Shown: piece after piece, positions 2,129-46,087 of the stretch
Position numbering within the stretch: position 1 is the first letter of the stretch
How the letters are laid out: each line of letters begins with the position of its first letter
NCBI GenBank assembly: GCA_029564765.1
Contig: JAKQPK010000002.1
Location: forward strand, 1-46,087
Direction of reading: 5' to 3'
Length of the DNA: 46,087 nucleotides
Origin: Candidatus Omnitrophota bacterium
GTDB taxonomy: Bacteria > Omnitrophota > Gorgyraeia > Zapsychrales > Aceulaceae
The notes under the pieces: generated by a model
What the model was told of the DNA's origin: nothing
The model's input: only the letters and a program-made list of their open reading frames with translations
The model's database searches: none
Made by a program: the position numbers and the translations under genes

Positions 2129-3201
2129 TTTCGATTCCATAAAAGCACAGACAAGGTTTCTCGACTGATCACCGCATCAAGCGTTGTCCTTACTTTAAAT
2201 TGATCGTCAATACCTCTAGCGTAAAGACGCACGTGCTGAGATGTCTCTTTTAAATAATGAACCGATGCAAGATAGATGGCCTGTTCATTAGCGTTAAGTC
2301 CAAGGTCCCCTGATGCCGTAGCGACCTTCAAAGGGCGATCGTCCGCGGTGCATAAAAGCCCATCTTCTCCTTTGCGATATGCGCTGATCTTCCCTACCAA
2401 ACTATCAGCATCCGATATATTAACGCTTGTATTTTTTTCTGCTAAAGAACGAAAAATGGCTCTCAGGACGATCTCTTCTGCTGTGTTCAGATTAACAGCT
2501 AGATCCATGTCCTGGCGAGGAAAAACGGTCACGACCCTTTTTATTTTCAAAAAAATATTTTCTGTCATATCACGAACGAACATTAGTTCCTGCACATGTT
2601 CAAAAGGCGCATCCTTACAAAATTTCCCGCTGGCAATATCATAGCTTTCCTTTTCTACGCCCAAGCCTAATGTCATCTTGTTGCTATCAGCATCTTTCCA
2701 GTCAACGACCTGTGCCGCAAGGCCATCTGCTTGCTCATCAGGCACATCGAGTAGCATAAAAAGATGAGCAAGTATGCGATAATTCTGCTGGTGGATACCG
2801 TTGATGTTCAGGCGACGGTCTTCATCTTCAAAACCATAACACTGATATGCGCGGCCCATATTGTCGATTAAAGGATATCCGATATCAAAAGAACCGCTTG
2901 CCAATGTAACACCTTTAAAAAGATCCTCCGGCGTCTTATTGTCTTTAAGAGCAAAACCACAAGTATATGCTGTATCTGCCAAAGAAGAATCAGGATCCTC
3001 TGAATCAAGCCGCAGTTGATTCATGGCATAATAAACTGACGCCCACCCTAAAAAGTCCGCCCGCAATTTACCGGCCCGATGCTTGGCAAGACTTAGGTCA
3101 ATGCGCGCCGTTCTTCCCAGCCCGATCGCAAGGACCGATAGGATCGCCAACATCCAGAGGACAACTATAAGTATTATGCCAGATTTGTTCTTATGTCTCA
3201 A
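2125..3201 (-). CDS. gspK: Type II secretion minor pseudopilin GspK
   Basis: GspK is the large minor pseudopilin thought to cap the pseudopilus tip together with GspI and GspJ. The N-terminus is a short basic leader ending in Lys-Ser-Gly, followed by a hydrophobic helix (IILIVVLWMLAILSVLAIGL). Like other GspK proteins it lacks the Glu at position +5 that other pseudopilins carry. The 358-residue length and a large alpha-helical insert match GspK and exclude the smaller pseudopilins. The region around residues 120-200 (GFEDEDRRLNIN, then VVDWKDADSNK) resembles the T2SSK domain, including Asp-rich stretches that could bind calcium. The gene follows gspJ after an 18-bp gap and overlaps gspL. Confidence 0.88.
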   Translation of the reverse strand: MRHKNKSGIILIVVLWMLAILSVLAIGLGRTARIDLSLAKHRAGKLRADFLGWASVYYAMNQLRLDSEDPDSSLADTAYTCGFALKDNKTPEDLFKGVTLASGSFDIGYPLIDNMGRAYQCYGFEDEDRRLNINGIHQQNYRILAHLFMLLDVPDEQADGLAAQVVDWKDADSNKMTLGLGVEKESYDIASGKFCKDAPFEHVQELMFVRDMTENIFLKIKRVVTVFPRQDMDLAVNLNTAEEIVLRAIFRSLAEKNTSVNISDADSLVGKISAYRKGEDGLLCTADDRPLKVATASGDLGLNANEQAIYLASVHYLKETSQHVRLYARGIDDQFKVRTTLDAVISRETLSVLLWNRK

Positions 3202-3219
3202 ATGAAACCCCCATAAACA

Positions 3220-3945
3220 TCACAAGGCCTCTTCCCAGAAGCCGGTCGGAATATAAATATCCTTTACGATCATTACTGGTCTTTTATCGCGGCCTATCGG
3301 CAAGAGGGTCATAGCGATACGAACGCCGGCCGGTAAATAATCCTTATCCCATCCTTGCTTCCATTCAAGCTCCGTCATCCCTTGCGTCGCTGTCAAATAC
3401 GCGCATAATACCTGAAATGTCGCCGCGTCAATATGCTCTAAAACGATCTCTTGTCGTTCGCCATGACCCGCGCCAGGGCCAAGAAAATCGGATAAAGGCT
3501 GCTCGCTGCGCATCAGCGTTGCTTGAGATAAAGCCGTATCGCTGTTGATGTTCGTGACAACAACATTCTTTTGAGATCGCCTACCCAGAAGAACCTTGTG
3601 CACAGAAACCTCTTGTGCGTTCTGAAGATAATAACGAACTCGCTTGATCTGATCCTGGTCAATGGTTAGGAATGAAAATCCCTGGCCATTCGTTTCAAAA
3701 GATTTAAAAACTGGATACGATCGAGAAAGATCAATGGAAACCGCGGACTCCAGCTCTCTGGCGATCATATCCAAATTCAGCTTAGCCTGATGATACAACA
3801 ACCCTTCGTTGTTGGCGCGCTGCTGGACCTTCAAGCCACTTGCAAATGTGCTATACAGCGCGGCAGCGATCACAGCAAAGATCAGAGATCCGAGAAGGAA
3901 CTCAACAAAAGTAAAACCGCTTTTTTTTCTAAAACGCATGATCAT
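3220..3945 (-). CDS. gspJ: Type II secretion minor pseudopilin GspJ
   Basis: Minor pseudopilin of the GspI-J-K tip complex. A basic leader RFRKKSG precedes the prepilin peptidase site, then FTFVEFLLGSLIF with Glu at +5. The 241-residue length and mixed beta globular domain fit GspJ. A longer in-frame start at 4044 exists, but it would place a non-pilin leader of over 30 residues before the cleavage site and overlap gspI by about 100 bp. I therefore place the start at the ATG at 3945, two bases after the gspI stop; an ATG at 3939 is equally possible. No strong Shine-Dalgarno sequence is visible, which suggests translational coupling to gspI. Confidence 0.85.
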   Translation of the reverse strand: MIMRFRKKSGFTFVEFLLGSLIFAVIAAALYSTFASGLKVQQRANNEGLLYHQAKLNLDMIARELESAVSIDLSRSYPVFKSFETNGQGFSFLTIDQDQIKRVRYYLQNAQEVSVHKVLLGRRSQKNVVVTNINSDTALSQATLMRSEQPLSDFLGPGAGHGERQEIVLEHIDAATFQVLCAYLTATQGMTELEWKQGWDKDYLPAGVRIAMTLLPIGRDKRPVMIVKDIYIPTGFWEEAL

Positions 3946-32647: not shown

Positions 32648-34321
32648 TCAGCGCGTTCGATAAAGATGCGCGCTCATTCCCTTTGTTCGAAATTCAGAGA
32701 TCTTTGGAAAGCGCAGGTCAAACGCGCTTAAAACAATATTCTCGAATTTCTCAGACGCTCCCGCTAAAAGCACCCAGGCCCGAGGCGCGTTCACCGAGTA
32801 AGGCAAAGGAGTCCCTTCAAAAACAAAGAAAACATCATCGCCGGTCATTTCCGCACGTACCAATGACCTTACATATTGATGGGTCTTATTGTACACGTTG
32901 AATTCATAGCGAAAGAACGTAAAACGTTTATCTTTCAACAGACGATACCCTTCCCAGAATTTCGCGATCCGCACGCCTTGCTTTGGAACGCCACCCTCCA
33001 TCCCAGCCCATTCCGTCGTAAAAAGCCTAGCCAGATGGCAGCGTCCGCCATAATACCATAACGGAAATTGAGCGGCTGAATTAAGGAACAGGAGGTCTCC
33101 TTTTTGGTAATTCTGGCAAACAAACCCTATCGCTTCCCGCGTATGTTCACGGCAGTAATCCTTCGTGAACCCTTGAAGCATGGAAAAAAATGCCTGGCTG
33201 CCAAGGCAAAGCATCAGCGCAACGACAACGGCCAAAGAAAATTTCTTATGAATATTGCGCGCCAGCCATAGGACACCTTCCACAACACATATGAGAACGC
33301 CAGGAAATAAAAATAACAAAAGCCTCCCCCTGAACGGATATTTATGAAAAATAGCTGCGGCTAGCGTGACAAGGATGGAAAATAAAAATAAGAACGCGTA
33401 AACCCTTTGTTTTCGGATCAATGATATCAGGCCTAAAACGAACAAAGGAAAACCAACGGCCGCGGTCGGAAAATAAAGCGGATCAACGAACATTTCTGAA
33501 AAAACCTTTTGGATCCATTGCGCGGCAGCCCAAGAGAATAAAGGGCTTTCCAGCAAAGCACCCTTCCACATCTGAAACAGCAGATCATTTGTGACCATGC
33601 TGGACAGGACTCGCTGATAAAGAAACCAAAAACTAACAGCCCAGCAGCCATAGATCAGAAAAGCGCACATCAAACATCGCCACCGCTTTCTCAAGACGGT
33701 CATAAAGAACGCGGTAAACCCAAAGCTTGCCAGAACAAATAATGTCGCGTTAGAGATCCACATCGCAACAGCGCCTATCAATCCGATCGCGCAGGAAGTT
33801 TTAAAGCGAAAAGGGGCCTGCATGAAACGGCCAAAGATCAAGACAAGCACAAGCCCTAAGAATAGGTCTAAAGAATATTGCTTTAATTCCGCGGAATAAT
33901 AGATCAAAGACGGCGACAAACAAAAGAAACCCAGAGCCAGGATCATTAGCGTTCTATCCTGAAATCTTTTGAGCAAACGATAGAACAAAAACAAAGAAGC
34001 TACCCCAAAAATAAATGGAAAAAGGCGTAACGCGTATTCCTGCGCACCAAAAATAAGGGTCGCGGTCTTTGTCAGCACAAGAAAGCCTAAGGGCGGCTTT
34101 GAAAAATCAGGAAAAACCTCAATACCGCGCACGATATCCCAGAGAGAGCGGCTTGTCAGGCTCACGGCCACCCACGCCTCATCGGTCCACAACGAACAAT
34201 TCGTTAAATAATGTTTGAGTCGGACAAAAATACCTAGCGCGATCAAGCCAAAACAAACAAGTTCAGTCCACCCCTTGCTGGATAAAAAACGTCCTGAGCG
34301 ATCTTTAATGATCTGGATCAT
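32648..34321 (-). CDS. GT-C family membrane glycosyltransferase (ArnT/PMT-like)
   Basis: A polytopic protein of 557 residues with about 12 membrane helices. The first periplasmic loop has the GT-C motif CSLWTDEAWVAVSL with Asp-Glu, and the next loop DFSKPPLGFLVL is typical of the ArnT/PMT family, which uses polyprenyl-phosphate sugars. The last about 150 residues form a periplasmic domain. It probably transfers a sugar to a lipid or a protein outside the cytoplasmic membrane; the target is unknown. The ATG at 34321 overlaps the U32 stop as ATGA; an earlier in-frame ATG at 34342 is less likely. Confidence 0.85.
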   Translation of the reverse strand: MIQIIKDRSGRFLSSKGWTELVCFGLIALGIFVRLKHYLTNCSLWTDEAWVAVSLTSRSLWDIVRGIEVFPDFSKPPLGFLVLTKTATLIFGAQEYALRLFPFIFGVASLFLFYRLLKRFQDRTLMILALGFFCLSPSLIYYSAELKQYSLDLFLGLVLVLIFGRFMQAPFRFKTSCAIGLIGAVAMWISNATLFVLASFGFTAFFMTVLRKRWRCLMCAFLIYGCWAVSFWFLYQRVLSSMVTNDLLFQMWKGALLESPLFSWAAAQWIQKVFSEMFVDPLYFPTAAVGFPLFVLGLISLIRKQRVYAFLFLFSILVTLAAAIFHKYPFRGRLLLFLFPGVLICVVEGVLWLARNIHKKFSLAVVVALMLCLGSQAFFSMLQGFTKDYCREHTREAIGFVCQNYQKGDLLFLNSAAQFPLWYYGGRCHLARLFTTEWAGMEGGVPKQGVRIAKFWEGYRLLKDKRFTFFRYEFNVYNKTHQYVRSLVRAEMTGDDVFFVFEGTPLPYSVNAPRAWVLLAGASEKFENIVLSAFDLRFPKISEFRTKGMSAHLYRTR

Positions 34322-35553
34322 ACACTCTCTCTTTTTTTCCAAATGAACACCTTATCCTTAGGCCTTACAACAAACGGCAGCTTAACACCAACAGCCGATC
34401 CCTTGGGCGCTTCTTTGATAAACACATGATCGCTTTGCATCTCTTTTATTTTTGTCTCAAGCGCTGGCGTTGAATTCCCAATAAAAAGAATAGTATCACC
34501 TTTCTTGAGAACCCCACCTTGAACGCGAATATCCGCCACCTGGATCTTGGCATAGAACTTCTTGACCTCGCCTATGTAAACTTTTTCATGAGTGTGGCCT
34601 AGGCCTTGGCTCATGTCTTTCTTGGAAGGCGTCCCAAAGTAAAACCCAGATGAAAATCCGCGGTTATAAACTTTTTGCACATCTTTTTTAAGATCACCTT
34701 TAAGTTTTGTTGTGAGCTTACCCTTACAAAAAGCATCCATGGCCTTGCGGTACGCCCTGACAACAACACGAATATATTCCGGTGAGCGCATCCGGCCTTC
34801 GATCTTAAAAGCCACCAAGCCGCTTTCCATGAGCTTATCTAAAAAATCAATGGCGCAAAGGTCTTTGGGGCTAAGCACATAGTCTTGTCCTAAAATATAT
34901 TGCGACTCATCATCCACATCGCGGATCGCGAATTCTCGACGACAAGGCTGCAGGCATTCTCCCCGGTTGGCGGACTTATCAAACGAAAGTTCCGACAAAA
35001 AACATCGCCCCGAAATGCTCACGCACATCGCCCCATGGACAAAGGCCTCAAGATCACAAGGTATTTTCCGCTTTTTAACCTCCCTAGTGATCTGCTGAAT
35101 ATCATCAAGAGTACATTCACGCGCCAGAACAATCCGCGAAACGCCTAGGCGGGCGTAAAAAGCCACCGCATCCGCGCTAGCAACAGAAGCCTGCGTTGAA
35201 AGATGTACCTTTAAGCCTGCCTCCATAGCCATGGACAAAGCGGCCGTATCCCACAAGATCACAGCATTTACCTCGGCCGCCTTAGCTTCTTTTAAAATAC
35301 GTCTTAGCTTTGGTCGGTCGGCCTCCATGATGATCGTATTGACGGTCAGATATCCTTTAACCCCGCGCTCATGCAAGAAATTTATGACCTTCTTGATCTC
35401 TAAAAGATCAAAGTTCGATGCCTCATGGCGCATGTTAAGCGTTTTGACACCGAAGTAGACCGCATCTGCGCCGGCAGAGGTTGCCGCATGTACGCTGGCC
35501 CAATCCCCTGCTGGGGCCACAAGTTCAGGATATATTTTTTTATGCGTTTTCAT
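34318..35553 (-). CDS. U32 family protein (TrhP/YegQ type, tRNA hydroxylation)
   Basis: A 411-residue member of the peptidase U32 family, most of which are now seen as RNA hydroxylation factors (TrhP, RlhA). It starts ELVAPAGDWASVHAATSAGADAVYFG, has VHLSTQASV, and carries the four family cysteines in AMCVSISGRCFLS and GECLQPCRREF, probably iron-sulfur ligands. KIEGRMRSPEYI and a C-terminal beta domain (about 325-405) complete it. A putative promoter (TTGCTC-N17-TATAGT, minus strand 35589-35561) would start transcription right at the ATG, hinting at a leaderless mRNA, if real. It is upstream of the GT-C gene in one operon. Confidence 0.93.
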   Translation of the reverse strand: MKTHKKIYPELVAPAGDWASVHAATSAGADAVYFGVKTLNMRHEASNFDLLEIKKVINFLHERGVKGYLTVNTIIMEADRPKLRRILKEAKAAEVNAVILWDTAALSMAMEAGLKVHLSTQASVASADAVAFYARLGVSRIVLARECTLDDIQQITREVKKRKIPCDLEAFVHGAMCVSISGRCFLSELSFDKSANRGECLQPCRREFAIRDVDDESQYILGQDYVLSPKDLCAIDFLDKLMESGLVAFKIEGRMRSPEYIRVVVRAYRKAMDAFCKGKLTTKLKGDLKKDVQKVYNRGFSSGFYFGTPSKKDMSQGLGHTHEKVYIGEVKKFYAKIQVADIRVQGGVLKKGDTILFIGNSTPALETKIKEMQSDHVFIKEAPKGSAVGVKLPFVVRPKDKVFIWKKRESV

Positions 35554-35632: not shown

Positions 35633-38600
35633 TTAAGAAAAGCGGCGGGAAAAAAAGCGACGAGCGCGCCCTAACAGATCCATAACAGGCGTCGGGCGTT
35701 CATCAAAATAGCGGTGAGCGATAAAGACCAGCATGCCAGAGCTCATGTAAAATAACGGGCTATCCCATAATTGCGATAGATAGTTAGTGCCGACACCTAA
35801 TGAGAAAATAAAAATGATGGAGTCAATATTTTTGGCGATCTGAGACCTTATTGAATAATGATCTGTTGCTCTTTTTCTACCACAGCGCCCAGACCGATCG
35901 AGTATGCGGGCAAGATATCCCCAAACGCTCGTCTGCAAAAGAGTGGCCAAGCCTAAGCCGCTGATCAAAAAAGTGCGCATACCTTGTGTCAACCAATACG
36001 CTTCATAGGGGAAAAACTGATTGATGATCCGAAATCCATGGTGGATCTGAAAACCAAAAGTAGCACCCAAAACACCCATGCCAAGCGCGCTTAAGACATT
36101 CCACCGCCTCTTCGCCACATATCCCGCGAACAGCTGGCCCAAGAATCCTGTTACAGATCCCGTGAGCGTATTGCGTAACAACTCATCCATCCAGATATCC
36201 TTTAAGGCAAAGCCGGAAATAAAAAAGAAGACGATCGACCAGCTGCTGCAAAGCAAGGTCTGCGTAGGCCAAACTTCTTCTGCGGCAAATCTAGAAGATT
36301 CATCTACGGTTCGCGTTGTCGCCATCAGCGGCAATAATGGCTTTATCTGACCTTGATCTTGAATACGGATCACGACTGCAGTGATGCTGCTCAATGATCC
36401 CTGGGCGATCTTTGTCGATTTATTATTACGATAATGAACGTGTTGTCCTCGAGAAAGAACTTCGATCTCGCCTCTTCCACCTAAGACAACAAGCGCATGC
36501 GTTAAAAAACATCCCAGTCCGCAGTCCCGAGGATTAGAAAAAACCTTGCTAGTATAACGAGTCTCAAAAGCCATCGTAATCTCTTCAAATCCTGGCCCAT
36601 CATCCACGAAAACCATCTCCACAGCTGCCTGAGATCCTTGCTGAAAACGCTGAACGCCTATGCCGACATGTCGCGCATTACGATCAAAATAACGTGCCTG
36701 AAAAAGGTTGGAAACCATCTCAAAAAAAACAAAAAAAGCCAGCATCCTGGTATCAACACAGTTGATGTCAGCACAAAGGAATGGCGTAAAATTCTCTCGA
36801 TAATAGGAGATCGCCTTTGTATCCAACAGTTGCCGCACATCCACGTACCCTTCGCGAGTATACACGCCTCCTAAAAGAGGGGTATCAAAACCTTTTTCCA
36901 AGAAAGAAAAGATCTTGCGATAGAGCTCTACTAAGTCAGAATTTATAAATGCCTCTCGCGGCATGACAACAAAAAGATTATGTTGCCGTATCCGATTTTG
37001 GCCCAAAAGGAGATCTAGGTCCTGCCGAAATTCCTCTTCTGTTTTGATCACTAATTCACGATCTGGGTCGTGACCAAAATTAATACAATCTGTAAAATCA
37101 AAAGGTTGGTGCGCTGATCTTAATCTTTCTCGAATGACAACCATATTATGTATCCACCTCGTAAAAGCACGATGCATCATGCTTGTAATCCTTACAAGCG
37201 CAGAAGAAGTTCCCTGCAAAAACGCATATTGCTCCATAGCTTGAGGCGATGTAAAGAAGTCAAAGATCGCAACTAGCTGGCTCTTACCGTCGATCAGGGG
37301 AAAAACTTTTCCGTCCTTGCGGATGATCGCTTGATAATCCGAAGGATAACGTAATGAAAAATAATATCCATCCGCGTTCAAAAAATGCTCTTCGCCAGTA
37401 AAAAGACGTCCTGGCGTTGAGTGCCGCGCGATCAGATCTGGGATCTCTTGAGCATGCTCATAATCTTCAAATCTGCTAAAATTCTCAGCCAACTCTCCAC
37501 GATATCGCTTGTTAATAGCAAAAAGCGGCAAGGCAAAACATGACACGGCACCTTTTTGCATAGACACACTGTGCTGTAAAATGGCTTTTATCGTGTTGGC
37601 TAAACAAGCTCTTAAAAGCCCTCCAAACAACAACCAATGGATATTCTTTTCCCGCTGCACATGAATATCTGCCATGCACGCATCAATAGAGATCTCTTCA
37701 AAGTCCTCAACCTTGATAAAAGGCAGTTGCGCCGCGCGAACAGCCCGGCGCAACTCTTCAGCTTGCGCATCTTCCGAGGAATACGGAAAATAATCATCAA
37801 CCTCAATAACCTTTCCCTGTCTAAAGCGGGAAAGAGAACAATAAGGACACAGAGCGGATGATAAAGAAGAACTTGTTTTCGTCGACTGGCAAAATCTTGT
37901 CGTCAATTCTTGGAACTCGCTTTTCAAGGACGAAGAAACGCCAAAAACATCTGGACCTGGGACAACAATATCCAAAACGCGCAAAACATTAAAGCGTCTT
38001 GGTACAGACCTAAACAGACGCTGACTATCGACATAATGACCGTTGGCCAAGGATAGCGTTGAGCGCTCACAAAGCGATTGGGCTGAAAAATTCTTTTCAG
38101 GCAAGGGAAATTCACGGTTCAAAAGATATCCGTACATGTTTAAAGTCGCTTGATCGACCACGCCGTCTTTCTGAAGGACAAAATACCCTCGGTCAAAAAG
38201 CTGTTGCGCTAATACACCCCAGCCGCTCCGTTCCTGAGCGAGAACATTTTGCAGTACAGTCCATGAATATCCACGCTGCCCTTTTTCTGAGAATTCTTGA
38301 TCAAAAAGCTGAAGAAAGGTGTCGTCGACCAAACAATATTCTTCCCCAGACTGTATCACAAGAAAGGAATGAAAATAAACGACATTGAAAGCGTCAGTCG
38401 ATTGATGCAAAAAGATCTTGATCGGCAATCCCCTTTTCTTTGAAAGATGGGCTGCGATCAAAGCAATATTGGATACAGAATGCGCGCACGCCCCGAACAG
38501 AACCTTAGGGGTAAGCCCATGCTCTTTAGAAACACCTTTAGGGGCAACAAATGTCTGCCATGGAAGGCCGCTATTTTTGTGTCGACGAAAAACCTGCAAA

Positions 38601-41600
38601 AATGCGCGGCGATTACGAGCGATGACATCCTGAATGAGACCTTCCAGCACTGATGAAGAGGGGTTTTCTACCTCTGGCCGGCCTTTAGAAAGAGCCAAGA
38701 AGAAAGACGAATTCAACGGCAGGCCACCTCTCTTTTCTTTTTGATGAATAACCGAAGAAATTTTGGCTCCTCGATCAGTTAATATTTCTTTGATCTCTAA
38801 AGGTATCTCGACGCCAAACCAGGCTGCCCGCTTGGCGTAAGCCTTGCGAAAAAAGACCGAATGGATCGCTGCCGCAACGATCTTCCACGCAAGCCATGTA
38901 GACCAGGACCTCCGCTCTAAAGCTAAAAGGTCTTTCTCGAACTTAGCTGATGGGCCATCTTTTCGAAGACGCATATTCCCTCCACCAACAATAGCAGAAA
39001 AAATACCCAACAATCCTGGCTTACGATATTTCCAAGATCTAGGTTTTAGATTCCGAGGCCCAAAAACAGACATCTCTCCTTTTAAAAGATTCAGGACCTG
39101 GGGAAGTTCATCAATGCCAGACATTCTCAGAACAGACCCCAGAGAGGTCACCTGACCGTCCTTCATGGTCCTTAGCTTTAGAACTCTGATGTCTTTCCCT
39201 TCCAACCCTTTTCTCATACAAAGAAAGAATGGGTTTTGCCGATCGACCAGCGCTGTGAACAAAGAACAGAAAAAGATCATCCCGATAGCAGGAATAGCAA
39301 TAACAACAGTCACAAAAAGATCTATAAGCCTCATGGTTGTGCTTAAAAAAACATTTTCGCCGCTGATCCCCATGGCGCGACAAAGTGCCCTAGAAAAAAA
39401 GAGCGCTATCACGACAACAGATGTCAAGACCTTGCAAAGCACAAGCCAAAGAGGTTGGCTGAGGATCCATTCCTCCAGCCAGAAGCTAGCGTCTGATGAA
39501 TTTTTGAATGAATGCTCGATACCTGTCCCAACGAACGCCATCCCAAAAAAAGGAGCAAGAGACAAGGTTGCGGCCAGAAAGAAAGCTTTGTTTTCTTTCA
39601 TAAAAGAAAATATGCGCTCAGCGACACTTAATATCGACGAAACAGAACCTTTTGATCGGCTCTTTAAAAGTGATCGTTGAATAACTTCTTGAAGTTCTGA
39701 AGGGTCGACCGGCTTATCTAAAAGTAAAAGGCCCATCGACTGGATCTGTTGTCGTTGTTCCTTCGTAGCCCACCCTGTCATCAACACAACAGAAATAGAT
39801 GGGAATTCATCAGCGACTTGCACAGCCAAATCTATGCCTGTGGCCTCGCCCATATTGACATCAGAGATGATCAGGTCAATGGATTCTGTGCGAAGGATCT
39901 CTATCGCATGCGCGGGGTCTTTGGCCTGACGCGTGCTGTATCCAAAAGACTCAACGAACATCGCTACAAGTTCACGGTTGGTCATTTCGTCATCGACAAC
40001 TAGAACAACGATGGACGATCCCGCGGCGTCTTGGCACAATCGTTTGATCAATCTTCCGTTAAATGATAACGCCAAATGGGGATTCATATAAAATGGAACG
40101 CCGCGAGGATGCGTGGAAAGCTCAGAGCTATTAATAAAGAAACACGCTTGGCTGCGCTCAGCGATCTTCAAAAGATACGGCTCCATTGTCTGAAAATTTT
40201 CTTCGGCTTGGTCAGCAGGGATCCCTGAATTTAAAAGAGTGATAATATCAATGTCCAAGTCCATAATGCTTAGCCCAAAACGTGCATCAGCCAATTCGTT
40301 GAGGCTATATGTGTCAGCGGGAAGGCTTTGAAGATTGAACGGCTTAGGCGCGAACCTACCAAGCTTGTGCCCAAGGTTAATCCTAGACGCTATCCCTGTT
40401 GTGGCCAAGTACCCTAGATAATCGTGGCATTGAAGCCTTGAAAAACCAAAAACGATCTCTTTTTCCCACTGCACGCTTTCCTTTTTCAAAAAAGGTGTCC
40501 CAACATGAGCGCCGATATCAACATGCGCGTCTAAATAATCCCAAACAACTCCTCCTTGATCGATGATCGCTTGAGCTTCTTCGCGATAATGATCAAAAAA
40601 GAAGCTATAGGAAAGATTGTGCTGTCCACCCCAATAGATCCTTTTGCCGCCTAAAAGCTCAATGACCAAATAATATTTATTTCCAACATAAAATATATCG
40701 CCATTTAGAAAAACTTTGATAACAGGATAGATCTCACTTTCAGAAAACTTATCCGCTGTGATCACGCGCTGCTCTATGATCGCGCCTGGGAAAGAAAAGG
40801 ATTCCTTGGCTTCGACAACAAAATATTTCTCTCGATCGATCACAAGCCCCGAAGAACCTATGGCTTGACCTCTTGTCGCCTTCGACCGATCTTTCAGCCA
40901 AGCATACACCTCATCATGCTGGCCAAAAACTAAAAATTCAAAGACATCCTTAGAAGGCTCAAGGTCAACAAGGGCTTCAGTTACAATCCTCTCAATCACA
41001 GGGACCATATCTTTATGAGCGTACTCGCGTCCGGTCTCGGTGTAATCCCTGATAAACAACACCGCGGCGATCCTAAGGCTCATGCTATTCAACTTTTGAA
41101 TAATAGAGCGGATCTTATTCTTGATCTTAGTCTCGTCTCCTCTAAATGGCGGCCATGTATTGTTAGAAAAATAATCCGCCGAAAGCGATACGATTGCTGA
41201 CCCTTTTATCGAAAGAGGCAGGCCATACACAGCAAAATTCTGACTTTCTAACAAATAGTCAAAAAAGCACCAGTCTTCGACATGATTCACGCCAGCCAAC
41301 AACAATTCTGGTGGATAAATCTGATAAATTTTATCTACAAGACCATCTTGTTTGGCGTGACGCAACCAGCTAGCAGGCGTGATCTTAACATCGTCCCAAA
41401 GATCTTTATGAGAATCAAAATTAAGAAAAACAACAGGCTTGTCTTTTGCTGATGAAGAGATCCCGGAAGATGATAACTTTCCATTCGCAGACCTCTGTAC
41501 AACAGGCCTAACAGCTCCTAGATGGATAAGTCGGCGCTGAAATTCTTTCTGGGCCGTCACGGTATAAAGGTCAGAAAAGATTTCCTTGGCGCTGTCTACA

Positions 41601-44600
41601 GCAGAATCAAAGGAATCCTCAACGGTTTCAGGCTTTCCCTCCCTAAAAAACTGCTGCTCTTTTTGCCTTATCAAAATAATCTTCAGGATACCCCCAACGG
41701 TCATAAGATCCAGCAGATCAATATCCCGCGCGATCCTTGCAAGCTTATCTTCTTCGCTAACGGCATCAGGCTCTTTAAATCCATACTGAATCTTTAGCAA
41801 ATATGTTCTCAACTTATCTTTGCGTGTCTTAGCTAATTGTGATCTCTCAAGCGCCTGATAAAGATCATCCCAGTGTTGACGACGGAATCTTTCCATAAAT
41901 CCGAGAGAATTTTCTATACCCCTAATCGGCCCCATATGCTTGAGGATAATATTCTGAACTCCCAAGATCAAACTTTTAGGATATTGATTCTGACGTAAAA
42001 TATCTTTAGCGACATCCGCGCCTTCAAGGTGATGGACCAGAAGTCTTAACGCTTGAGACAACTGCATGTTCTCTGGAATATAATGTTCCAGGGCATGGTC
42101 TTTGGTTATGTCATGAAGCCAAAGCGCAATCGTCAGCATGCGCACCTGATAAGTGTTCAAACCTTCCTCTTTGATAAATCTTTTTACACGGTGAACATTC
42201 CGACGGATGTGCGCAACGTTAAAAGCGTTCAAGCTGTGATCCTGCAGAATATGAAGCCACTCTGCGGTATGCCTCGCCCATGGTGAACTCCCGTTGTTTT
42301 TAGAAGAAACTCCCGAGGATGTCTTTGTTGGAAGGCCAAACTGCTGACGAATAAAACTCCTTAATTTTTTTCTTTCTTCAGGTGTCAGTTGATCAAACCC
42401 AAAAGAATAAAAATCTTTGATAAAGAAATCATCTAAATGCTCACGCATAAAACGAACTGCTTTCATGAGCTTTTCGATGTCCACGGCGATATCGGCGTCC
42501 AGTGCGTCCAAGAAAAACGCGACATCCTCGGTTGTGAGATTGCCCACGGAATTGCCAGACAAGGGATTACCTCCTTGATGCAAAATAGAAACATCAAGAA
42601 TGTCCACCCCAGCCGCGATCGCCGCAAAAACCTTATCCGCTTCCTCGCAGTTTTTAACATGAAGATGCGCTGCTAAGGTCATATCTTTAAGATCGACCTT
42701 TCGACGAACATGCGTCAACAGCGCGTAAACTTGTTCTACATTCGCTTCTGCTGTTGTGTCGCAAATAACAAGCTCATTAACACCCAGCCTTTGCGCCTCA
42801 AGGCACAGAGCTACGACCTCTTCTTGCGTTACTTCATCGCGCTGAAAATGACCATCACCATCTTTAAAAGGATAACCAAAACAATTACTGATATAAAATC
42901 GTATGCGGATCGATGCTAAATTCTTTCTTGCACCGCTGTTTCTTAATTCTCCTTCAAGACAACGAACCCGCGCGATCATGCCTTCTTTGGCGTGCAAAGA
43001 TTCTAAAGGCGCTATATCCCTTCGCGTATTAACAAGTTCATAGTGTCTAGCGGCCCCCACAACAAAAGAGATCTCAGACGCATCCGGATGAAGAGACAAA
43101 AGTATATCGACATGGTCTTCTTTGAAAACCAAATAACCAAATTCAACGCCGAGATCATTAAAATTTTCTGCCGTATACTGAATAAGGCTTTGGGAATACG
43201 CCGGCATGAAAGGAAAAACTTTAGCGGTTGTCAAAGATGTCACCTCAACGCGCGGGCGAAGATTATTTTCAGGAGTGCAATAAAAAGCGTCAACGATCTT
43301 GCCTAAAGCCTGCTGGGCAACGTCAAGATCAAAGAATTTATGTTCTTCTTTAAGATTTTGCAACAACTCCCTTAACATTTCATAAAGGACAATGCGCCGC
43401 CCGCTTACCATCCGGGCAAATTCGCCTAAGCTCATACCCAGATCGTGTTGACATTTTCTTTGAAAACCGTTGATAAAAATCTCGATCTTTTCTTTGGTAT
43501 CATTAAATATTGCAGAGGATCCGATGGGTAGCATTTGAAATGGGGATGCAGCGGGAGTCCGGCGAGGAAGACAAGTGAAACCCTGCGCTGGCGGGCCCTG
43601 AGATAGGGCAGACGAAACACCTTTTTTCTCAACAAATTCTTCTACCATTGCCAAAAGCTCTTCTTCCTTGCATGTGACTCCTAAATTGATCCAAAAATCT
43701 ACCTCATCGGTCGCATTGCTCGTCCATAAAATATACGGGACACCGCCAACTTCCGCGCGCATGGCCATCACGAATTTTCCACCTGTCTCGCCGTTGGAGA
43801 GATCATAGTCTAAGACAAGCAGATCAATTGTTGGCCAGCTCGGCATATTGCTTCGCCTTAAAATAGCCAACCCGTCAGCTGTTGTGCCGGCAGCAAAGAC
43901 ATGATGTCCTTGCAGTTTTAGAATATGCTGAAGACGATCGCGCTGGACTTTTTGATCATCAACGATAAGAATATACAAAGGTGACGAGAGGACTTCAGGG
44001 TTTTCTTGCGTCGGATTATAGGTAATGATCTCCCGGCAAAATTCCGCATACGGCCTTACACCACCAACAACATTCCCCTCTTTGTCATACACATATTCAC
44101 GCTTGAACGAAAGCCCTGGATCGATCGATTTCATCAAAACATCATAGCAGCGGTCAAAAGCGCATCGACACACTTTGGTCGTATCAAGCCCTAACGATTG
44201 ACAGGCTTCTAATACCAAACACCGATTAAAATAATCAAGGACGACCTTTGTTTCTGTGGCTTCCGCGACCCGGATCTGTTTAGCATCAATACCCAAATTC
44301 TCTTGAACATAAACCCGCATCATCCAGTCCTTCAAAGATTCTCCTGGTTGTCGCTTAACAAGTTCCGGATTATTCTTAACCCAGGCTACTTTACGAGAAC
44401 ATCGCTGAGCGCCGTCAGCATACAAATATCGCTCCATATGCTGAGCGCCTAATCCTTGCACCGGTTTCAGAAAATTCATGATCTTCATCAGATCAGGATC
44501 TTGTTCTGCCTCCGCGCCCATCCTTGGCGGGAAAAATGTGCCATTGGACTTCTTCGCGCAAAGATCGTTGATCGTCCTCAAGATATCTTTGGCATTCGCC

Positions 44601-46087
44601 CGGGTGATGGTATAAAGAAAAGGCCCGTCTTCGCCGATCAGATGATGCGTCAAAAGGGTGTTGATGATAAAATCGTTCCACGGCCGCCAAAATCTTTCTC
44701 CGGCCAAGATCAAGGGAACAGGAGCCATCTTGTGGGTTTTGATCAAAGTGATGACTTCAAACAGCAAAGACAGGGTTCCAAAACCTCCTGGAAAGAAAAC
44801 AAAGGCGCTGCTATATTTGATCAATCCGATCTTTTGCAAGAATATATGGGAATATTCGACCATGATATCCGGGTCAGGATCGCCGATCTGTGTTTTTGTT
44901 TTCAGATTGATAAATTTTCCAACCTCAAAGCCCGCGGGTGCCTCTTGCTTGGCTTTCTCCACTCCCGCATCCACGGACCTGCCGATACGCGCGACACTGC
45001 GCGCCATCACGCAAACGCCTTGCGAAGAAACAAGATAAGACAGGTCACGAACCGCTGTTCGATACCTAGGCGTCGCCTGGATCGCCTGCCCGCTCCCTAA
45101 AATGCTGACCGCCTTTTTGATCTCATCAAGCCTTTGCTGAGTTAGCAAAAGTTCATTCTCAATATTAGAAAAGTCTAAATGAAATGTTTTAATGCGCACA
45201 GGCAGCGCGTTAATATGGTCTCGGATACCCTCTAGCGTATCAAAAACATGGACATATCGATCCAGATCAATCCTGCTCATCGACAAAAATCCTTTATCGC
45301 GCAGCTCCTCGATCAGGCGCAGCAAGGGCGCATAAAAACCGTTGGAATTCAGAATGTAGATGTGCGTGCGCAAAAAGCCTCGATCGACAAGGGTCAGCAC
45401 ATCAAAGAGTTCGTCAAGAGTGCCGAACCCGCCCGGACAGATAACATACGCTTTACAAAAACGAAAAAATGTCGTCTTACGAGCAAAAAGGTCTTTTTCA
45501 AAATGCAGATCAATATCCAAGTATGGATTTGGCTTTGGCTCGTGCGGCAAGGTAATGGTCAATCCTATGGATTTTCTGATCACATTCCAGCGTGCATTAT
45601 TTTTTGCTGATTCTTGCGCACCCTTATTCGCCGCCTCCATAATGCCTGGCCCTCCACCGGTAACGATCGGGCAATTGATCATCCTTGCCAAATGAACGGC
45701 GTCCTCATAATCCTGGCTGCCAGGCACAACTTGCGCGCCGCCAAACATCGCGACGCAACGACCGATATATTTTTGGTGCTTTTTAAGAAAGACGTGCTGC
45801 TTTAACTCGCGCATAGAGCGATGAATAAATGCCGGATCGTAAGGATCCTGAGCGCCATTGTGCCATAAGGCGGCGACGCTTGTTTCTCTCTTGTCATCCT
45901 TTACGAATTGTCCCAACCAAAAACCAACGATCAACATGCCAACGCCAATAGTAAACAATTGATGCGCTGGATGGGGGAAAAACAGGTTCCACCCTAGAAG
46001 GATTATGCTGCTGAGAGCATAAAACCAAACCTTCCTACTGATAGCCGAGCTTACGATGAGATCAACAGGCGTGCGATGGCCTTGAAA
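35633..46087 (-). CDS. Giant multidomain signalling/glycan-initiation protein, 5' end outside window
   Basis: One unbroken frame of 3,484 visible codons, open to the window edge. A TTG at 45958 is not the start, since 43 further codons with a membrane segment precede it. Order by position: two membrane helices; LOG domain (about 45770-45180, PGGFGTLDEL); second, degenerate LOG (45100-44520, PGGFGTLSLL); receiver (43975-43640); HMG-CoA-lyase-like barrel (43260-42420); HD domain (42240-41670); UPF0489-like (41460-40930, FDSHKDL) and ureohydrolase-like domain (40860-40030, GGQHN, DAHVD, MDLDID); intact receiver (40020-39660, SDVNMG, DKPVD); membrane helices and sugar-phosphate transferase (39345-39000, SGIDELPQVLN); transglutaminase-like triad (38490-38320); CPYC (37850); HATPase_c (36780-36370, DDGPGFE, GLGCFLTH); C-terminal membrane bundle (36290-35640). 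Ser-rich linkers separate the parts. Probably a membrane-bound protein joining phosphorelay sensing to glycan assembly; the function is inferred. Confidence 0.93.
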   Translation of the reverse strand, partial: FQGHRTPVDLIVSSAISRKVWFYALSSIILLGWNLFFPHPAHQLFTIGVGMLIVGFWLGQFVKDDKRETSVAALWHNGAQDPYDPAFIHRSMRELKQHVFLKKHQKYIGRCVAMFGGAQVVPGSQDYEDAVHLARMINCPIVTGGGPGIMEAANKGAQESAKNNARWNVIRKSIGLTITLPHEPKPNPYLDIDLHFEKDLFARKTTFFRFCKAYVICPGGFGTLDELFDVLTLVDRGFLRTHIYILNSNGFYAPLLRLIEELRDKGFLSMSRIDLDRYVHVFDTLEGIRDHINALPVRIKTFHLDFSNIENELLLTQQRLDEIKKAVSILGSGQAIQATPRYRTAVRDLSYLVSSQGVCVMARSVARIGRSVDAGVEKAKQEAPAGFEVGKFINLKTKTQIGDPDPDIMVEYSHIFLQKIGLIKYSSAFVFFPGGFGTLSLLFEVITLIKTHKMAPVPLILAGERFWRPWNDFIINTLLTHHLIGEDGPFLYTITRANAKDILRTINDLCAKKSNGTFFPPRMGAEAEQDPDLMKIMNFLKPVQGLGAQHMERYLYADGAQRCSRKVAWVKNNPELVKRQPGESLKDWMMRVYVQENLGIDAKQIRVAEATETKVVLDYFNRCLVLEACQSLGLDTTKVCRCAFDRCYDVLMKSIDPGLSFKREYVYDKEGNVVGGVRPYAEFCREIITYNPTQENPEVLSSPLYILIVDDQKVQRDRLQHILKLQGHHVFAAGTTADGLAILRRSNMPSWPTIDLLVLDYDLSNGETGGKFVMAMRAEVGGVPYILWTSNATDEVDFWINLGVTCKEEELLAMVEEFVEKKGVSSALSQGPPAQGFTCLPRRTPAASPFQMLPIGSSAIFNDTKEKIEIFINGFQRKCQHDLGMSLGEFARMVSGRRIVLYEMLRELLQNLKEEHKFFDLDVAQQALGKIVDAFYCTPENNLRPRVEVTSLTTAKVFPFMPAYSQSLIQYTAENFNDLGVEFGYLVFKEDHVDILLSLHPDASEISFVVGAARHYELVNTRRDIAPLESLHAKEGMIARVRCLEGELRNSGARKNLASIRIRFYISNCFGYPFKDGDGHFQRDEVTQEEVVALCLEAQRLGVNELVICDTTAEANVEQVYALLTHVRRKVDLKDMTLAAHLHVKNCEEADKVFAAIAAGVDILDVSILHQGGNPLSGNSVGNLTTEDVAFFLDALDADIAVDIEKLMKAVRFMREHLDDFFIKDFYSFGFDQLTPEERKKLRSFIRQQFGLPTKTSSGVSSKNNGSSPWARHTAEWLHILQDHSLNAFNVAHIRRNVHRVKRFIKEEGLNTYQVRMLTIALWLHDITKDHALEHYIPENMQLSQALRLLVHHLEGADVAKDILRQNQYPKSLILGVQNIILKHMGPIRGIENSLGFMERFRRQHWDDLYQALERSQLAKTRKDKLRTYLLKIQYGFKEPDAVSEEDKLARIARDIDLLDLMTVGGILKIILIRQKEQQFFREGKPETVEDSFDSAVDSAKEIFSDLYTVTAQKEFQRRLIHLGAVRPVVQRSANGKLSSSGISSSAKDKPVVFLNFDSHKDLWDDVKITPASWLRHAKQDGLVDKIYQIYPPELLLAGVNHVEDWCFFDYLLESQNFAVYGLPLSIKGSAIVSLSADYFSNNTWPPFRGDETKIKNKIRSIIQKLNSMSLRIAAVLFIRDYTETGREYAHKDMVPVIERIVTEALVDLEPSKDVFEFLVFGQHDEVYAWLKDRSKATRGQAIGSSGLVIDREKYFVVEAKESFSFPGAIIEQRVITADKFSESEIYPVIKVFLNGDIFYVGNKYYLVIELLGGKRIYWGGQHNLSYSFFFDHYREEAQAIIDQGGVVWDYLDAHVDIGAHVGTPFLKKESVQWEKEIVFGFSRLQCHDYLGYLATTGIASRINLGHKLGRFAPKPFNLQSLPADTYSLNELADARFGLSIMDLDIDIITLLNSGIPADQAEENFQTMEPYLLKIAERSQACFFINSSELSTHPRGVPFYMNPHLALSFNGRLIKRLCQDAAGSSIVVLVVDDEMTNRELVAMFVESFGYSTRQAKDPAHAIEILRTESIDLIISDVNMGEATGIDLAVQVADEFPSISVVLMTGWATKEQRQQIQSMGLLLLDKPVDPSELQEVIQRSLLKSRSKGSVSSILSVAERIFSFMKENKAFFLAATLSLAPFFGMAFVGTGIEHSFKNSSDASFWLEEWILSQPLWLVLCKVLTSVVVIALFFSRALCRAMGISGENVFLSTTMRLIDLFVTVVIAIPAIGMIFFCSLFTALVDRQNPFFLCMRKGLEGKDIRVLKLRTMKDGQVTSLGSVLRMSGIDELPQVLNLLKGEMSVFGPRNLKPRSWKYRKPGLLGIFSAIVGGGNMRLRKDGPSAKFEKDLLALERRSWSTWLAWKIVAAAIHSVFFRKAYAKRAAWFGVEIPLEIKEILTDRGAKISSVIHQKEKRGGLPLNSSFFLALSKGRPEVENPSSSVLEGLIQDVIARNRRAFLQVFRRHKNSGLPWQTFVAPKGVSKEHGLTPKVLFGACAHSVSNIALIAAHLSKKRGLPIKIFLHQSTDAFNVVYFHSFLVIQSGEEYCLVDDTFLQLFDQEFSEKGQRGYSWTVLQNVLAQERSGWGVLAQQLFDRGYFVLQKDGVVDQATLNMYGYLLNREFPLPEKNFSAQSLCERSTLSLANGHYVDSQRLFRSVPRRFNVLRVLDIVVPGPDVFGVSSSLKSEFQELTTRFCQSTKTSSSLSSALCPYCSLSRFRQGKVIEVDDYFPYSSEDAQAEELRRAVRAAQLPFIKVEDFEEISIDACMADIHVQREKNIHWLLFGGLLRACLANTIKAILQHSVSMQKGAVSCFALPLFAINKRYRGELAENFSRFEDYEHAQEIPDLIARHSTPGRLFTGEEHFLNADGYYFSLRYPSDYQAIIRKDGKVFPLIDGKSQLVAIFDFFTSPQAMEQYAFLQGTSSALVRITSMMHRAFTRWIHNMVVIRERLRSAHQPFDFTDCINFGHDPDRELVIKTEEEFRQDLDLLLGQNRIRQHNLFVVMPREAFINSDLVELYRKIFSFLEKGFDTPLLGGVYTREGYVDVRQLLDTKAISYYRENFTPFLCADINCVDTRMLAFFVFFEMVSNLFQARYFDRNARHVGIGVQRFQQGSQAAVEMVFVDDGPGFEEITMAFETRYTSKVFSNPRDCGLGCFLTHALVVLGGRGEIEVLSRGQHVHYRNNKSTKIAQGSLSSITAVVIRIQDQGQIKPLLPLMATTRTVDESSRFAAEEVWPTQTLLCSSWSIVFFFISGFALKDIWMDELLRNTLTGSVTGFLGQLFAGYVAKRRWNVLSALGMGVLGATFGFQIHHGFRIINQFFPYEAYWLTQGMRTFLISGLGLATLLQTSVWGYLARILDRSGRCGRKRATDHYSIRSQIAKNIDSIIFIFSLGVGTNYLSQLWDSPLFYMSSGMLVFIAHRYFDERPTPVMDLLGRARRFFSRRFS

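Follow-up and report, generated by a model that had tools for sequence, protein, structure and literature searches.

A 3,484-residue open frame of Candidatus Omnitrophota bacterium as the probable C-terminal part of a mosaic giant protein

Giant genes of Omnitrophota rank with the largest genes known, and reports usually describe them as having no recognisable domains. One end of the stretch of DNA analysed here (46,087 nucleotides, referred to as the window) carries a long frame in which many enzyme-like domains can be named, and this raises the question of whether these domains form one pathway or are passengers on a larger chain. A preliminary description of the locus took the frame for a genuine giant multi-domain protein in which a signal controls the first step of surface glycan synthesis.

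The frame (35633..46087, reverse strand) runs through 3,484 open codons before a single terminal stop. The probability of such a stretch being stop-free by chance was calculated as ∼1.6e-87 at its own base composition. The GC content by codon position (0.53/0.38/0.45) was similar in each 1.5 kb slice and thus gave no indication that the frame changes or degenerates anywhere; the claim of more than 10.4 kb in one frame without a stop was borne out on both counts. Because the window is a complete contig (C71) of the source genome (G000), the frame is open at its 5′ end and is almost certainly truncated on that side. The source genome (1.86 Mb, 76 contigs, 98% complete) belongs to the phylum Omnitrophota and is a relative of Candidatus Aceula; a genome of the same family (G003) corresponds to the Candidatus Aceula lacicola MAG. 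Giant proteins of the phylum, to which the preliminary description had referred, have been published (PMC10066038, PMC12419801). Multiple transmembrane helices were found in the protein by a hydropathy scan, and the proposed membrane anchoring stands as far as these segments are concerned. The features are listed in Table 1.

Table 1. Features of the C71 frame and of the adjoining downstream genes (window positions; residues numbered within the frame)
Feature	Residues	Positions	Strand	Basis
Single open frame, 3,484 aa, 5′-open at contig end; almost certainly the C-terminal part of a larger gene		35633..46087	-	frame and composition scan
Hydrophobic membrane segment(s)	20-62	45902..46030	-	hydropathy scan
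LOG domain 1; catalytic R and GGxGTxxE present	100-290	45218..45790	-	Pfam/TIGR profiles, alignment of 12 giant copies
LOG domain 2; degenerate, catalytic R and E replaced	300-516	44540..45190	-	profile match, alignment
Conserved block, no recognised fold; shared with 22,742-aa frame of G033	536-696	44000..44482	-	homology
Receiver domain 1, divergent	705-815	43643..43975	-	profile match
HMGL-like (DRE-TIM metallolyase-type) barrel	861-1249	42341..43507	-	profile match, alignment
Example Ser-Ser linker between modules, TKTSSGVSSKNNGSSPW	1250-1279	42251..42340	-	sequence
HD-superfamily domain	1280-1518	41534..42250	-	motif, profile, model
Ureohydrolase-like domain 1, peptide-arginase/agmatinase-like; DxHxD kept, one second-motif ligand lost	1547-1720	40928..41449	-	profile, alignment
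Ureohydrolase-like domain 2; GGQHN, DxHxD, DxDxD invariant	1744-2010	40058..40858	-	alignment
Receiver domain 2, all key residues	2026-2142	39662..40012	-	profile matches
Membrane helices and monotopic phosphoglycosyl-transferase-type domain; Asp-Glu dyad present	2160-2430	38798..39610	-	Pfam, hydropathy, alignment
Module with conserved Cys-His-Asp; papain/transglutaminase-like by motif only	2470-2665	38093..38680	-	homology, motif
Conserved block, no recognised fold; also in syntenic giants of G001 and G002	2737-2964	37196..37879	-	homology
Probable histidine-kinase-type ATPase, N and G boxes	2985-3260	36308..37135	-	weak Pfam, motif by eye
C-terminal hydrophobic module; homologous to stretch of 7,894-aa frame in G015	3275-3484	35636..36265	-	homology, hydropathy
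U32 peptidase family gene, downstream; marks locus common to G001 and G002		34318..35553	-	homology
PMT-like membrane glycosyltransferase (weak Pfam match), downstream; syntenic in G002		32648..34342	-	homology

The LOG assignment was supported as a tandem (PF03641, 8e-37; TIGR00730, 128 bits against a cut-off of 96) with a degenerate second copy. LOG-1 passes the family cut-off and carries the catalytic Arg and the PGGxGTxxE motif, as do the LOG/TIGR00730 phosphoribohydrolases (PDB entries 9us2 and 5wq3), but here it is placed in tandem with an inactive-looking LOG-2, which does not satisfy this combination, within a giant frame. The catalytic Arg and GGxGTxxE of LOG-1 are kept in nearly all of the 12 giant-frame copies at ∼30% identity; by its residues, the pair looks like a retained combination of an active and an inactive half. 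The LOG-1 modules of giants were split from the stand-alone LOG proteins of Omnitrophota by a branch with 99/99 support in a tree with long branches and few stand-alone LOG sequences, which argues against a fresh capture from each genome's own LOG gene.

The receiver described earlier as having all key residues corresponds to receiver 2, a strong match over residues 2028–2136 in which DDE, SDVN, MTG and DKP are all present; receiver 1 gave a weaker match (4e-9 on its own slice) and is a second, divergent member. The HMGL-like barrel was missed in the preliminary description and is absent from its title. Its RE, HxH and GN (Asn) motifs are kept in five of five copies, whereas the catalytic Cys of the HMG-CoA lyase GGCP motif is missing and the score lies far under the NCBIfam cut-off. 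No relative of this block was found in the viral contigs searched, and the scan of genome contigs returned two relatives only. For the HD domain, the motif is kept in relatives, but Pfam gave no match to the region and the structural matches are weak: profile A5 found an HD hydrolase in the PDB with E = 0.055, and the moderate-confidence part of an AlphaFold model of residues 1250–2022 (mean pLDDT 55, used for this weak match only) resembled HD-GYP (probability 0.89, E = 0.21). The model of residues 2425–3290 (mean pLDDT 38) was set aside; structure prediction on slices, proposed earlier as a check, thus yielded poor models and the weak HD-GYP match.

Two arginase-like domains account for the ureohydrolase-like region. 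The family of the first was matched in the PDB to peptide arginase (3e-5) and agmatinase (1e-4), with which it shares metal-ligand motifs (PDB entries 8brp and 3lhl); DxHxD is present in eight of eight copies, and in the C71 protein the second metal motif is damaged by loss of one ligand. The second domain has GGQHN, DxHxD and DxDxD in four of four copies, as expected for the superfamily. In contrast to the known enzymes, the two divergent copies are arranged here in series.

The bacterial sugar transferase (residues 2253–2412; Pfam 75 bits, 6e-21) shares the K-R-T-M, Asp-Glu dyad, KGEMS and GPR motifs of the monotopic phosphoglycosyl transferases PglC and WbaP. It aligns with them over the catalytic core only, the PglC alignment stopping after GPR, and it differs from them in being without conserved partner modules. 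The lipid-carrier glycosyl-1-phosphate transferase that had been called intact therefore retains its catalytic core and dyad, but the region following GPR is unaligned. In the proposed histidine-kinase-type ATPase the N and G boxes can be recognised by eye, but the region scored 17.2 bits against a Pfam cut-off of 27.4, and it gave no match in the PDB and no homologue in the relatives searched. No HisKA or His phosphoacceptor domain was recognised in the frame. The Cys-His-Asp module, also overlooked earlier, has its motif conserved in two sequences. With the frame real and most of the named folds supported, the description as a genuine giant multi-domain protein holds.

The upstream part of the gene was sought among the other contigs of the source genome. 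Contigs C7, C53 and C16 join by exact 141 bp end overlaps into one frame of 27,468 residues, which accounts for 12,638 residues to a point 20 kb into C16; C16 itself is open throughout (21,496 aa). The joined frame opens with MNHISN and has at its start a hydrophobic probable signal anchor and a C39 peptidase domain (Peptidase_C39, 47 bits, cut-off 22); near the right end of C16 it encodes glycogen-synthase, HAD, phosphoribosyl-pyrophosphate-synthetase (N-domain), nucleotidyltransferase and CheR domains. The last 120 bases of the open end of C71 found no overlap partner among the other contig ends, and C16 (3′-open) and C71 (5′-open) share no sequence overlap with each other or with the other contigs compared. 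C71 was placed after C7–C53–C16 by gene order: a 3,392-aa frame of G001 opens with a homologue of the final 120 residues of C16 (43%), followed by those of the C71 HD domain (48%) and of the block at 2737 (37%). A second G001 frame (7,925 aa) contains a block that is neighbouring in C16 and then a receiver that best matches receiver 2. Other 5′-open ends (C4, C6 and C20) begin within a different conserved N-terminal domain; C30 and C8 are possible alternatives. Taken by this order, the gene is likely to comprise 27,468 plus 3,484, that is ∼31,000 residues plus any gap, and the C71 frame is probably the last ninth of the protein. We strongly infer that the remainder lies on C7–C53–C16 and starts with the probable signal anchor and the C39-type cysteine peptidase. 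The extension to a start, proposed earlier, thus recovered a frame with its start, but the connection to C71 is by gene order and not by overlap. Compared with the >20 kb single-frame definition of giant ORFs, 10.4 kb is visible in the window before the contig end cuts the frame, and the C7–C53–C16 frame measures ∼82 kb; the C71 join would add to it.

Large genes of other kinds were encountered in these genomes. A second family of 1,400–3,200 aa has in common an N-terminal region of ∼380 aa (G000 C4, C6 and C20; G001:C14, G002:C12, G003:C18, G033:C7 and G072:C46), to which Pfam gave no name in G003. Near-identical repeats of ∼300–380 bp at contig ends interrupt the G000 assembly at genes of this family. 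The left ends of G000:C19 and G000:C30 are open frames of many mutually similar repeats (64–72% DNA identity) and are probably one repeat-rich large gene divided by assembly.

A search for the same domain order, also proposed earlier, did not recover it: in relatives the modules of the C71 frame recur within frames, the longest of 44,856 aa, where their order and their company differ. Among the matches listed, 36 of the 38 counted sit in frames of 1,500 aa or more, in a tally made by hand with ordinary single LOG proteins and ordinary receivers excluded. Pfam searches of other giants identified phosphoglycerate kinase with the HMGL-like block, glycosyltransferases, acetyltransferase, guanylate kinase, FAD oxidoreductase, isochorismatase, HAD hydrolases and methyltransferases. 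In a 2,730-aa frame of G003 (G003:C18:34726-42918) the HMGL-like block comes after a phosphoglycerate kinase domain of nearly full length, and a 44,856-aa frame with tandem LOG in G007 (C3, near 51,600) exceeds the 39,678-aa protein of Velamenicoccus archaeovorus.

The same locus was compared in G001 and G002 by its downstream side, where the U32 peptidase, Mg-chelatase-like, DUF212, YkuD, AccA and RlmN genes are kept in both (50–78%) and the PMT-like gene in G002 (36% identity). The syntenic giant of G001 shares the HD domain and the 2737 block with C71, and that of G002 the 2737 block alone (37–48% identity). No LOG, receiver or transferase homologues were detectable in either syntenic giant.

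Modules of the C71 frame are separated by short linkers in which pairs of serines are frequent. Of its 32 Ser-Ser pairs, 17 lie within the 10% of residues designated as linkers, the bounds of which were drawn by hand with the sequence in view; by a test less open to this bias, Ser-Ser pairs are nearer to the edges of homology blocks than other serines are (p ∼5e-5). In giants of G053, G071 and G055 the motif SSP[VILAM] occurs 22–37 times per frame against 0.4–0.7 expected (40–60-fold), at about one per 220–310 residues, roughly the length of a domain, and with varied codons. Control ORFs showed no excess of this motif, and in the giants of G000 itself the SSP motif is near background. A DNA-level repeat at the SSP sites was considered and rejected, as the codons lean towards TCG-CCG but vary between genomes. 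In G053 (C83, near 26,340) two giants of 8,779 and 7,286 aa share one reading frame and are separated by a single TAA; this codon falls within an HTH-like sequence (LSPAE*EDLELIAKNW) and may represent a nonsense mutation, a sequence error or read-through.

The original proposal was that receiver, kinase ATPase and HD domain gate the phosphoglycosyl transferase and thereby the first step of surface-glycan synthesis. Receiver 2 does directly precede the membrane helices and the transferase, both catalytic cores look intact, and the genes for trehalose-phosphate synthase and phosphatase and for the PMT-like protein, all sugar-related, lie in the vicinity. However, among the matches listed from 81 genomes of the order no other receiver–transferase adjacency was present and each of the two recurs separately; since the pair is not kept together, the idea of a signal-gated glycan line does not pass its main test. 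That neither syntenic giant (G001, G002) has a detectable receiver, transferase or LOG points the same way, glycan synthesis offers no role for the majority of the modules and no His phosphoacceptor was recognised, so we regard this proposal as improbable. It is still harder to credit that the frame is an assembly chimera of several genes, a reading that we consider very improbable: the genome is a draft in 76 contigs, but the frame is single and stop-free with a steady codon-position composition, and the same modules are fused in large frames of independently assembled MAGs.

A junk frame grown by loss of stop codons and capture of genes would explain why LOG-2 and ureohydrolase-1 are without catalytic residues and why a G053 giant is interrupted by an in-frame TAA inside HTH-like sequence. 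Such decay is hardly compatible with 10.4 kb free of stops and with the catalytic residues kept in nearly all of 12 LOG-1, in five HMGL-like and in four ureohydrolase-2 copies, and it is judged unlikely. A polyprotein whose Ser-Ser linkers would be cleaved, perhaps by the C39-type or Cys-His-Asp modules of the chain itself, to release separate enzymes has a modest chance of being correct. The N-terminal C39 peptidase, the conserved Cys-His-Asp module, the crowding of Ser-Ser at module edges in the C71 frame and the 40–60-fold SSP[VILAM] excess in the giants of G053, G071 and G055 are in its favour, but the motif is near background in the giants of G000, and flexible Ser-rich linkers require no cleavage.

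The reading that we prefer, and hold with reasonable though not high confidence, is that the C71 frame forms the last ∼3,500 residues of a single secreted or membrane-threaded mosaic giant of ∼31,000 residues. Its modules are mixed metabolic, nucleotide and protein-modifying enzymes, to which the upstream part would add C39, glycogen synthase, HAD, PRPP synthetase and CheR. The glycan transferase and the receiver would then be two among many passengers and not the core of a pathway. Giants of this kind would gain, lose and exchange whole modules across short Ser-Ser linkers, so that the position of the gene is kept while its content turns over. The many small catalytic or sensing modules on one tethered chain might act on molecules of a partner cell or of the contact site. 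We tentatively suggest that the protein works as a machine at the surface or at the cell contacts of a bacterium that is predatory or depends on a host, a role favoured by the N-terminal anchor and peptidase and by the published link between a V. archaeovorus giant and attachment. Against a surface machine, the transferase, the ATPase and the receivers would need cytosolic substrates; against the size of ∼31,000 residues, the C16–C71 junction is without sequence overlap.

Comparable proteins are known from the phylum. Giant ORFs of >20 kb were reported in 77 of 116 Velamenicoccia and 20 of 23 Omnitrophia (Seymour et al. 2023, PMC10066038), and peptides from the 39,678-aa protein of V. archaeovorus, the only one for which expression linked to attachment is known, were up threefold in attached cells (PMC10066038). 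The present protein agrees with these in phylum, in its very long single frame, in its membrane helices and in inferred size; however, those giants are described as having few annotated domains, adhesin domains or functions in polysaccharide degradation, whereas many enzyme-like modules with catalytic motifs kept are found here. A passage of a second account describes gigantic Omnitrophota proteins that mix sugar-biosynthesis, kinase-receiver, peptidase and methylase domains, with a predatory role suggested (PMC12419801). In its Skillet-clade Lipocone giants, sugar-biosynthesis, kinase-receiver, papain-like peptidase and methylase domains and membrane segments occur in one chain, as here; the likeness is in the accompanying classes, and the exact module order of the C71 frame is not described for them in that passage. 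The view that this architecture lacks a published description agrees with the literature searched, in which none was found, the large-scale giant-gene study of West-Roberts et al. (bioRxiv 2023, cited in PMC12057145) lying outside its scope. The C71 frame is real, large and unusual in its make-up, yet within the known class of Omnitrophota giant mosaics.

The C71 locus provides a handle on these giants, as it combines modules with named catalytic sites, a comparison at the same locus and short repeated linkers at module edges. What makes it of interest is not the proposed glycan pathway but the pool of modules, their turnover at a single locus and the punctuation by Ser-Ser. As a speculative extension, Omnitrophota might hold a private pool of enzyme modules that occur nearly only in giants and are swapped at Ser-Ser sites (Ser-Ser-Pro-Val in some lineages) at fixed chromosomal positions, and the chain may be cut there into many enzymes, as a cellular polyprotein directed at prey or host. 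With this locus it becomes testable whether such giants serve as arrays of tethered enzymes, as polyproteins that are processed or as exported effectors.
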